The notes below the pieces were generated by a model. It searched no databases, was not told the origin of the DNA, and saw only the letters and a list, made by a program, of their open reading frames with translations. A stretch of DNA of 64,000 nt, taken from NCBI RefSeq assembly GCF_002260525.1, contig NZ_MRYI01000003.1:310001-374000 (forward strand). Reading direction: 5' to 3'. Positions 8,707 through 17,043 of this stretch are shown in pieces. The position numbers and the translations under genes were made by a program. The stretch is from Hahella sp. CCB-MM4. Its GTDB lineage: Bacteria > Pseudomonadota > Gammaproteobacteria > Pseudomonadales > Oleiphilaceae. How positions within the stretch are numbered: position 1 is the stretch's first letter; each line of letters opens with the position of its first letter.

Positions 8707-9495
8707 TTATCGACGGGGACTGTTCTGCTCCTCAGCATTCCATGTTCCCGCCACTTTCTGCACGGACTTCAACATTCCACGCAAAATATTAACTTCCATT
8801 TTATCCAGATTCGCCCTCTGAAAAAGCCTTCTCAGACGGGGCATCAACTGCCTCGGTCGCTCAGGATCATGAAAACGAATATCGATCAAGGCTTCCTCCA
8901 GATGCTGAATCAATCCTTCCACATCCGTTGCTGTTGCCGGCGGCTCATCCCATTGGGACTGCATTGGCCCTGATAAAGTTCCGATATTGGTATCGCTCTC
9001 TTCATTTTCAAGCAATGACTGCAGATAAAGCTCATAACATATCACCTGCACTGCCATGGCTATATTCAATGAGGAATACTCGGGATTTGATGGAATATGG
9101 ACATGAAAGTTGCATCGCTGCAGCTCTTCATTGGTCAGGCCACTGTGTTCTCGACCAAATAGTATGGCAACATCCCCCTGCTCGGCCTTTTCACTGACCA
9201 GACCTGCTACTTCCCTTGGCGCAGCCACCGGCCAGGGAAGATTACGCATCCTGGCGCTGGCACCAACCACCCACACGCACCCATCGAGAGCTTCATCCAG
9301 AGAATCAACCACGCGCGCAGCGCCCAACAAATCATCCGCTCCGGAAGACCGCCTGAGAGCCTCCTCACTGGGAAAGTCCTGCGGCTGAATCAACACCAAC
9401 TGACTCATACACATATTTTTCATGGCGCGAGCCACCGCCCCAATATTCCCGGGGTGGGAAGTATTTACCAATACTATGCGGATACGATCGAGCAT
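8707..9495 (-). CDS. trmJ: tRNA (cytidine/uridine-32 2'-O)-methyltransferase TrmJ
   Basis: SPOUT-class enzyme that 2'-O-methylates position 32 of tRNA with SAM. The 262 residues include the SpoU N-terminal block (RIVLVNTSHPGNIGAVARAM), the central ILFGREHSGLTNEEL motif and the SAM-knot motif IPSNPEYSSLNIAMAVQ. A helical C-terminal tail with many Arg and Leu residues is also normal for TrmJ. It is divergent from suhB across a 515-base gap, as in E. coli where suhB and trmJ are also neighbours. Confidence 0.95.
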   Translation of the reverse strand: MLDRIRIVLVNTSHPGNIGAVARAMKNMCMSQLVLIQPQDFPSEEALRRSSGADDLLGAARVVDSLDEALDGCVWVVGASARMRNLPWPVAAPREVAGLVSEKAEQGDVAILFGREHSGLTNEELQRCNFHVHIPSNPEYSSLNIAMAVQVICYELYLQSLLENEESDTNIGTLSGPMQSQWDEPPATATDVEGLIQHLEEALIDIRFHDPERPRQLMPRLRRLFQRANLDKMEVNILRGMLKSVQKVAGTWNAEEQNSPRR

Positions 9496-9817: not shown

Positions 9818-9826
9818 TGGTATGAT
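9818..9826 (+). promoter_or_regulatory. Extended -10 promoter candidate for suhB
   Basis: TGGTATGAT at 9818-9826 is an extended -10 (TGn plus TATGAT). No good -35 is seen, which is acceptable for extended -10 promoters. Transcription from here would give a leader of about 175 bases before suhB. Confidence 0.45.
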
Positions 9827-9975
9827 GTCGCACCTTTTTTCCCAGTTCTTTAAACTTCCGATTTTGATCGCCAATACCGGCAGCCAGGAATTCTCCGCTG
9901 CGAAGCTGGCCATGGCTATTTTTTGCCATCAAACGGATTCGCAGAGGAAAAGGGCAAACGAACTGTCAGAGTCTT

Positions 9976-9988
9976 TGCTTTTTAACAA
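9976..9988 (+). promoter_or_regulatory. boxA-like antitermination element in the suhB leader
   Basis: TGCTTTTTAACAA differs by one base from the rRNA boxA TGCTCTTTAACAA. It ends ten bases before the suhB ribosome site AGGGA (9999-10003). In E. coli, SuhB with the Nus factors binds boxA and autoregulates suhB through such a leader; this element has the same layout. What is seen is the sequence match and position; the regulation is inferred. Confidence 0.7.
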
Positions 9989-10010
9989 CTTCTTAGTTAG
10001 GGATGCGACA

Positions 10011-10808
10011 ATGCAACCAATGATCAACATTGCCCTCAGGGCCATTCGCTCAACTAACGAGCAAATCAATCTGGTTATCGAGCGTGAAGAACTCTCCTTC
10101 AATGACCCGGATGCAATCAAGCGTGTTATATCCCGAGTAGACTCCACATTCTACGACAACCTTTCACGCGCCCTGCAAAGAGCTTATCCCACCCATCAGA
10201 TCGCTAAAAAAGGCGACCTGAAAGGCAACCCTAAAGGTATCAGCTGGCATATACTCCCATTGCACAACCCTGCCAGCCTTATCAGAGGTCTACCTGACTG
10301 GTGTTTTTCTGTAGTTTGTAAGAAAAACGATCAGATTGAGCATGCCTTGATCATTTTCCCGCAAAATGGCGACGAATATACGGCAAGCAAAGGCGCCGGA
10401 GCATCACTAAACGGAAAACGCCTGAGAGTCTCCAAGACCAAGGATCTGGAACTAACCCTGATCGCAACCAATATTCTTGATGGGGTCGGCAGCAAAGAGA
10501 ACCCGTCTCCTATCCTGTCCACCTATGCCAACCTGGAGCGCAATTGCTTTGGCATCAGAGGAGCGAACTGCATCCCTGAGCAACTAAGCTGGATTGCAGC
10601 AGGCAAAATTGACGCCATCATTTTACAGAACATCACACCGACAGAGACGGTCGCCGGCCTGATGATCGCAAAGGAAGCCGGAGCACTGTCAGCAGATTTT
10701 AACGGTAACCCGCTGACCGACCGGACCAGCACTCTGGTTTGCTGCAATCCTAAACTGCTAAAAGTGATCACCCCTAAAGCAAAAGAGTTTATCGCCAAGC
10801 CAGAATAA
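10011..10808 (+). CDS. suhB: SuhB-family protein with degenerate phosphatase active site
   Basis: Inositol-monophosphatase fold; in E. coli SuhB the essential role is in the Nus complex for rRNA antitermination, not catalysis. From the ATG at 10011 (AGGGA seven bases upstream) the 265-residue protein aligns along its length with E. coli SuhB: MQPMINIALRAIRS at the N-terminus, YTASKGAGASLNGKRLR in the middle, and AGLMIAKEAGALSADFNG near the end. The catalytic metal ligands are lost: the Glu of TEES is Lys67 (IAKKGD), the DPLDGT motif is LPLHNP (Leu82, His85), and PWD is PTE (Thr211, Glu212). It is therefore predicted to be inactive as a phosphatase while keeping fold and context. The frame is open to 9822, but boxA and ribosome site support 10011. 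Confidence 0.88.
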   Translation: MQPMINIALRAIRSTNEQINLVIEREELSFNDPDAIKRVISRVDSTFYDNLSRALQRAYPTHQIAKKGDLKGNPKGISWHILPLHNPASLIRGLPDWCFSVVCKKNDQIEHALIIFPQNGDEYTASKGAGASLNGKRLRVSKTKDLELTLIATNILDGVGSKENPSPILSTYANLERNCFGIRGANCIPEQLSWIAAGKIDAIILQNITPTETVAGLMIAKEAGALSADFNGNPLTDRTSTLVCCNPKLLKVITPKAKEFIAKPE

Positions 10809-10920: not shown

Positions 10921-11838
10921 CTATGGCATATCGTCGGCTTCAACACCTTCCTTCACAGGAATCATCAGATCTTCTTTACTGATACCCATCATCAACAATG
11001 AGCTACTAGCCACATATATAGACGAATAAGTACCCACTACAATACCGATGATCAGGGCTTTGGAAAAACCTTCCAGCGCCTCTCCACCAAACATGTACAG
11101 CGCGACCAGAACCAATAGTGTAGTCAACCCGGTTACAATGGTACGCGACAGCGTCTGAGTCAGAGAAATGTTGATAATCTCTGTTGGCGACTCCTTCCTG
11201 ACCCGGCGAAAGTTCTCCCGAATCCGGTCACTGACAACAATGGTGTCGTTCAGGGAGTAACCGATTACCGCCAGCACAGCCGCCAGGACATTCAAATCAA
11301 AATCCCACTGCAGCACGGAAAAGCAACCAACGGTGATGATGACATCATGAATCAACGCACCAACCGCCCCAACAGCAAACTTGAACTGAAAGCGGAAAGA
11401 GATGTAGATCATGATCATTCCAAGCGCCAGCAGCAAGCCCAGGCCGCCCTGTTCACGCAATTCTTCACCTACCTGCGCACCGACAAACTCTGAACGAACA
11501 AGATCCACCGCCTGCCCGCCACCACGCAGAGTGGTCAGCACTTCTTGGCCGATCTCATCACTATATCCCTGCTGCAACCGCACCAGAATACTGGTGTCGG
11601 CTCCGAATTTCTGCACCACAAAATTCTGGTATCCACCCTGCTCTAGCAGCTGTTTGATCTGCGGCACACTGGGAGCCTGTTCATATTGAACCTCAACCAG
11701 CGTCCCACCAGTAAAATCCAGACCTAAAGACAATCCCCGGTAGGCTATTGCCACGATTGATATAATAATCAACGCCAACGAAAGACCGAGCGCGGCTTTA
11801 GAAATCCCCATGAAGTTATAAATTTTTTCATCAGCCAT
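10921..11838 (-). CDS. secF: Protein translocase subunit SecF
   Basis: Inner-membrane partner of SecD that uses the proton motive force to finish protein export through SecYEG. The 305-residue protein has an N-terminal membrane segment, a periplasmic P1 domain (LDFTGGTLVEVQYEQAP) and a five-helix C-terminal bundle. The conserved AVIGYSLNDTIVVSDRIREN motif is present. It starts two bases after the secD stop with a GGAG ribosome site, so both are one transcript. Confidence 0.97.
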   Translation of the reverse strand: MADEKIYNFMGISKAALGLSLALIIISIVAIAYRGLSLGLDFTGGTLVEVQYEQAPSVPQIKQLLEQGGYQNFVVQKFGADTSILVRLQQGYSDEIGQEVLTTLRGGGQAVDLVRSEFVGAQVGEELREQGGLGLLLALGMIMIYISFRFQFKFAVGAVGALIHDVIITVGCFSVLQWDFDLNVLAAVLAVIGYSLNDTIVVSDRIRENFRRVRKESPTEIINISLTQTLSRTIVTGLTTLLVLVALYMFGGEALEGFSKALIIGIVVGTYSSIYVASSSLLMMGISKEDLMIPVKEGVEADDMP

Positions 11839-16958: not shown

Positions 16959-17043
16959 GCCGGAGTGGCGGAACTGGTAGACGCGCACGACTCAAACTCG
17001 TGTTCCTCCGGGAGTGGGAGTTCGATTCTCCCCTCCGGCACCA
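16959..17043 (+). tRNA. tRNA-Leu (anticodon CAA)
   Basis: An 85-base class II tRNA. The acceptor stem GCCGGAG pairs with CTCCGGC, followed by A and an encoded CCA. The anticodon stem CACGA/TCGTG carries the loop CTCAAAC, so the anticodon is CAA, reading UUG. The long variable arm (TTCCTCCGGGAGT) and T-loop GTTCGATTC fit leucine tRNA. I see no attachment-site duplication or integrase next to it. Confidence 0.96.

Follow-up and report, generated by a model that had tools for sequence, protein, structure and literature searches.

SuhB orthologues that have lost their metal site in Hahella sp. CCB-MM4 and its relatives, probably retained as Nus factors

The window (the whole stretch of DNA analysed here, 64 kb in length) contains an orthologous suhB gene in its canonical place. 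The genes and protein segments relevant to the analysis are these:

8707-9495, minus strand: trmJ, the canonical divergent neighbour of suhB, recognized by sequence reading and by tblastn to relatives
10011-10808, plus strand: suhB orthologue encoding 265 amino acids, predicted from its sequence to be catalytically dead; assigned by Pfam, NCBIfam, tree and motif reading
10203-10214, plus strand: A65-K66-K67-G68, the remnant of ITEESG, where a two-residue deletion removes the Glu67/Glu68 metal site
10254-10271, plus strand: LPLHNP (residues 82-87) in place of DPLDGT, with loss of the ligands D84 and D87 and of T89
10638-10646, plus strand: PTE (residues 210-212) in place of PWD, with W211 lost and D212 changed to Glu
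10749-10772, plus strand: the C-terminal segment PKLLKVIT, in which Lys248 and Lys251 are kept and Leu254 is replaced by Thr
10921-11838, minus strand: secF, the downstream neighbour, followed by secD, yajC, tgt and queA

The gene order is iscS-iscR-cysE-trmJ on one side of suhB and secF-secD-yajC-tgt-queA on the other, with names that we take from our own reading of the sequences; trmJ, cysE, iscR, iscS, secF and secD were also matched to the loci of relatives by tblastn. The suhB gene of E. coli likewise adjoins trmJ, iscR and iscS. Relatives align to the start at 10011 (MQP...). An ATG at 9822 opens the suhB frame 63 codons earlier, and the upstream part (9822-10010) is probably not translated. 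Farther downstream, a tRNA-Leu(CAA) at 16959-17043 adjoins queA on the strand opposite to tgt-queA, and a short ORF overlaps this tRNA.

The encoded protein scores 66 bits against the Pfam model Inositol_P (PF00459), for which the cut-off is 27, and its best matches in the PDB are SuhB. Its best NCBIfam model is PRK10757, at 109.5 bits, below the equivalog cut-off of 332 bits; because that model was built from catalytic members, the miss makes the protein a less typical SuhB without weakening its orthology. In a tree of 70 rows, from which the catalytic columns were dropped and the genomes G252, G554 and G450 were left out, it groups with E. coli SuhB inside the SuhB clade and not with the inositol monophosphatase (IMPase) paralogues. 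An AlphaFold2 model made from the window protein and 42 relatives (pLDDT 91.2, pTM 0.89) takes the IMPase fold. The best Foldseek match of the model is P. aeruginosa SuhB (TM 0.86), followed by E. coli SuhB; TM by query length is 0.79-0.87 across the SuhB chains listed, and the SuhB matches include copies in the AR2 complex and in the rrn antitermination complex.

None of the four carboxylates that serve as metal ligands (Glu67, Asp84, Asp87 and Asp212 in E. coli numbering) is unchanged in the window protein. D84 is replaced by Leu, D87 by His and D212 by Glu, and Glu67 lies within a two-residue deletion. The preliminary description had read DPLDGT as LPLHNP, PWD as PTE and the Glu of TEES as Lys67; the first two readings are exact and the Glu is indeed gone, but Lys67 is not a one-to-one replacement for it. 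Where E. coli has HTIITEESG the window protein has HQIAKKG, and if the two are anchored on the next Gly, Glu67 aligns to Ala65. A sequencing artefact was considered and is ruled out by equal loss of the site in 7/7 genomes of the genus. With these residues gone, the window protein would be expected to lack catalytic activity. SuhB proteins are called live or dead below according to the four ligands.

In the GTDB family of the window genome (f1), all 59 complete suhB loci read are dead (40 and 19 from two sets, with one genome, G012, counted twice), and they represent 16/16 sampled genera, including Marinobacter and Oleiphilus. Nearly all rows of this family have lost ligands 67, 84 and 87, and T89 is lost too, with no consistent replacement. 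In one f1 genome, G118, from a Marinobacter-like genus, suhB (L163) is split over two frames by a frameshift, which may be a sequencing error or a real loss. Other families of Pseudomonadales are dead in every genome read: f6 (6 genomes), f7 (2), f26 (3), f36 (5), f37 (11) and f38 (6). Mixed families are f39, with three dead and six live, and f44, with five dead and three live; the other families read are live. The pattern in f37 is intermediate, with D84 lost in 11/11, D87 kept in 11/11 and Glu67 kept in 7/11, and it suggests stepwise decay of the metal site. In genus g93 of f39 (L231, L113, L376 and L371), SuhB is dead and very divergent in three genomes. The NusA of G252, in the same genus, is also very divergent, with 41% identity to E. 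coli in a split match, and it may be that the Nus machinery is diverging in this genus.

Among 80 named loci, 44 are not EDDD at the ligand positions and 42 lack Glu67, D84 and D87 all; those 42 come from Marinobacter, Oleiphilus and MAG records that bear different names. L299 and L310, both named MAG loci, have one or two ligands changed (EDND, EESD) and are possible recent independent losses. A search across the class covered 370 genomes. Motifs were read in 26 chosen among the weaker-scoring genomes, a choice that gives no class-wide rate, and otherwise in the window genome plus a small number of Pseudomonadales genomes; G161, a partial match, was left out of the reading. At least two ligands are changed outside Pseudomonadales in G678, G651, G450, G554 and G659, all among the 26 read, and in the first four of these suhB adjoins trmJ and/or secF. 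In G435, also outside the order, a partial SuhB-like match beside secF (L141) is without D84; it is uncounted here and is perhaps a further dead SuhB.

Two trees, both of a single gene, bear on the number of losses. In the NusA tree (54 rows, leaving out the long-branch or distant G319, G252, G678, G651, G450, G554 and G659), the dead/live state needs three changes, with a 5-95% range of 3-3 over 200 bootstrap trees, of which 0% need only one change. The dead rows form a clade of 29/29 from f1, f6, f7, f37 and f38 (support 99/97), a separate G366 (f44), sister to the live G385 (97/97), and a pair consisting of G221 (f36) and G213 (f26) (93/88). In the SuhB tree, by contrast, all 36 dead Pseudomonadales rows supplied fall together (support 99). 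That grouping may be long-branch attraction; since decayed SuhB sequences have long branches, the NusA tree is given more weight, and one common loss behind all dead SuhBs is considered less likely. Dead SuhB is clade-wide, and the loss probably recurrent, rather than particular to the window genome.

The residues that survive in dead SuhB were identified by comparing 34 live SuhB, 61 dead SuhB and 24 IMP2 rows, at one preset threshold and then at 27 settings, with G319, G252, G678, G651, G450, G554 and G659 left out. IMP2 designates proteins of the type of L001, another IMPase of the window genome, at least about 45% identical. Ten residues are common to live and dead SuhB and not to IMP2 (P3, R10, R13, E124, R139, R141, G232, K248, K251 and L254). 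The set common to live SuhB and IMP2 and lost in dead SuhB consists of K34, D38, D44, E67, E68, D84, D87, T89, T155, G156, P158, A188, W211 and A214, of which E67, D84 and D87 are included partly by the definition of dead. Position 184, whose Arg has been studied in E. coli SuhB as an interaction or dimer residue, is Arg in 24/24 IMP2, 28/34 live SuhB and 0/61 dead SuhB, and in these alignments it behaves like an enzyme-site residue. The variability of the pocket was also compared, the pocket residues being those usual for IMPases. Across 94 sites conserved in live SuhB, pocket entropy in a dead clade of 33 rows is 2.40, versus 1.38 elsewhere (permutation p 0.0005), and the excess persists at the 90 sites left without the four residues that define live and dead (2.48 versus 1.38, p 0.0012).

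According to Huang et al. 2019 (PMC6614801), a double change of K251 and L254 reduces the affinity of E. coli SuhB for NusA AR2 by a factor of more than 1000. K251 belongs to the SuhB-specific set at 27/27 threshold settings and L254 at 12/27, and L254 is absent from the set when f1 or the genus alone serves as the dead group. At the settings that find both AR2 residues, the chance that a set would hold the two is 0.009-0.023; at the other 15 only K251 is found, and the chance of 0.16-0.21 is not significant. Position 251 is K/R in 59/61 dead rows, and position 254 is L in 30, V in 15 and I in 7. The four genus genomes read have Thr, Ala, Ser and Thr at the Leu254 position, where the window protein has Thr, and with this change the NusA contact in the genus may be weaker or shifted. 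NusA itself was found in 60/60 genomes searched, with the AR2 stretch readable in each, the divergent NusA of G252 being partly matched. In the window genome, in which one 16S copy was found, the rrn leader carries GATCTTTAACAAG and the rrn spacer carries GAGCTCTTTAACAATTT, both boxA-like on comparison with the E. coli boxA. Two papers (PMC6614801, PMC4807359) state that SuhB of E. coli takes part in rRNA transcription and that complementation does not require its IMPase activity.

A gene in this state could be a dispensable, decaying paralogue that drifts while another SuhB does the work. The window genome does encode three other IMPases, L001, L002 (CysQ, over its cut-off) and L003, each with an intact DP(I/L)DGT motif, and the frameshift-split suhB of G118 would also fit such decay. 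The preliminary description had named a second full suhB as the finding that would make this copy dispensable; none of the three is SuhB by the tree, however, and L001, the closest of them, has 0/10 of the SuhB-specific residues. The window protein moreover finds matches in 151/151 f1 genomes, with a best E of 7e-37 or better in 149, the two weaker matches being G118 and G040 (68% complete, E 4e-13), and the gene occupies the canonical locus. Purifying selection acts on it as on the genes beside it. For four genus pairs, dN/dS (Nei-Gojobori) is 0.043 (dS about 2), 0.040, 0.040 and 0.015 for suhB, and 0.037-0.057 for trmJ and 0.023-0.034 for secF in the same pairs; six of the 21 possible genus pairs were run, and two suhB pairs were saturated. 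Presence throughout f1, the tree, dN/dS and an L001 without SuhB-specific residues lead us to reject a pseudogene or dispensable paralogue, which we consider very improbable and the least probable of the accounts weighed here.

It is also improbable, if not to the same degree, that dead SuhB remains enzymatically active, through a reconstructed metal site or on a different substrate. Position 212 is acidic in 42/61 dead rows, and 11/61 keep two of the four ligands, including most of f37 (E-N/S-D-E), so weak metal binding is possible in some. Against this stand the near-complete loss of the other three ligands and T89 in f1, with nothing consistent in their place, and a pocket that is more variable than the other sites conserved in live SuhB. 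A role outside the Nus complex, such as another scaffold or a pocket re-used for binding, would accommodate the changes at L254 and R184 in the genus, but K251 of the AR2 contact is among the SuhB-specific residues that survive, and both NusA AR2 and boxA are retained; we judge this possibility to be about as small as that of a surviving enzyme.

The best reading, which the comparisons make likely, is that catalysis was lost and the Nus role kept. Strict preservation of SuhB after loss of the parts needed for the enzyme suggests that its work for the ribosome is the only thing that maintains it. The preliminary description had proposed that selection dropped catalysis and retained the Nus role, and pocket variability, dN/dS and the SuhB-specific residues all bear this out; its view of the protein as a natural separation-of-function SuhB is likewise favoured by comparison, except that the separation is not this genome's own. 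We infer a Nus function for the window protein, and the likely mechanism would be as follows. SuhB would have turned into a pseudoenzyme that retains the fold of IMPases and serves solely as a Nus factor, joining the rRNA antitermination complex with boxA RNA, NusB/E, NusA, NusG and RNA polymerase. It would dock on NusA AR2 via its C-terminal helix, and other SuhB-specific surfaces may also engage the complex, with R10, R13, E124, R139 and R141 as candidates.

IMP2 occurs in 29/60 genomes of a first set and in 16/43 resolved genomes of a later one, with two genomes, both live, in both sets. Absence in the later 43 means that no second match to the SuhB profile lies in the IMP2 score range (about 130-175 bits); the weak second matches of live genomes score 44-63 bits, and their sequences were left out of the IMP2 reading. 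Among 24 sequences read from the 45 carriers, 23 have the full active site. In L382, the IMP2 of G251, the first Asp of DPxDGT is Ala in the alignment (EADD). Combining the sets, intact IMP2 is present in 45/67 genomes with dead SuhB versus 0/34 with live SuhB, leaving out G205 and G351 (f15), in which no syntenic SuhB was resolved. The 22 dead genomes without IMP2 comprise 10/11 of f37, three of f39, five from outside the order, and one each of f6, f7, f26 and f38. The overall pattern suggests a division of labour. However, independent pairs give no significant association (2-3 pairs, almost all in the same direction), and with so few pairs and 22 dead genomes without IMP2, division of labour is put forward as a hypothesis and not as a result. 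It is conceivable, and to us slightly more doubtful than convincing, that catalysis was lost from SuhB several times over in Gammaproteobacteria, in many cases after a dedicated IMP2 became able to take the phosphatase task.

SuhB of E. coli and P. aeruginosa is both a Nus factor and an inositol monophosphatase. The window protein resembles it in orthology, in the trmJ neighbour, in fold and in the SuhB-specific residues of the N-terminal helix, the R139/R141 stretch and K248/K251; it differs in the absence of the metal-binding and catalytic residues and in the changes at R184 and, in the genus, L254. A catalysis-defective E. coli SuhB made in the laboratory, reportedly the subject of Chen and Roberts 2000, has the same Nus-type role without catalysis, whereas the separation here would be natural, old and clade-wide. 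Certain pseudophosphatases (myotubularin-related, PHLPP2) reportedly show the same loss of catalytic motifs with a non-catalytic role kept; unlike them, dead SuhB would be a bacterial transcription factor of IMPase fold. Among the matches listed from the open-licence literature, no title or abstract opening mentions a natural catalysis-dead SuhB, a weak sign that none has been described; the single match to SuhB in a Marinobacter paper proved to be guidance on pronunciation. Annotation pipelines probably still label dead SuhBs as inositol monophosphatases.

The IMPase site is mostly kept in SuhB proteins, even though the E. coli Nus role does not need it, and a natural separation-of-function set makes this puzzle testable. 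Live sister genera would aid such a test, for example in f44, where g127 can be set against g59 and g78. Besides K251/L254, the residues R10, R13, E124, R139, R141 and K248 are candidates for the Nus surface. If the division of labour is true, a protein that is at once enzyme and transcription factor would have been separated into one that is purely a Nus factor and another that is purely an enzyme, and the surface specific to the Nus role could be read straight from SuhB sequences.
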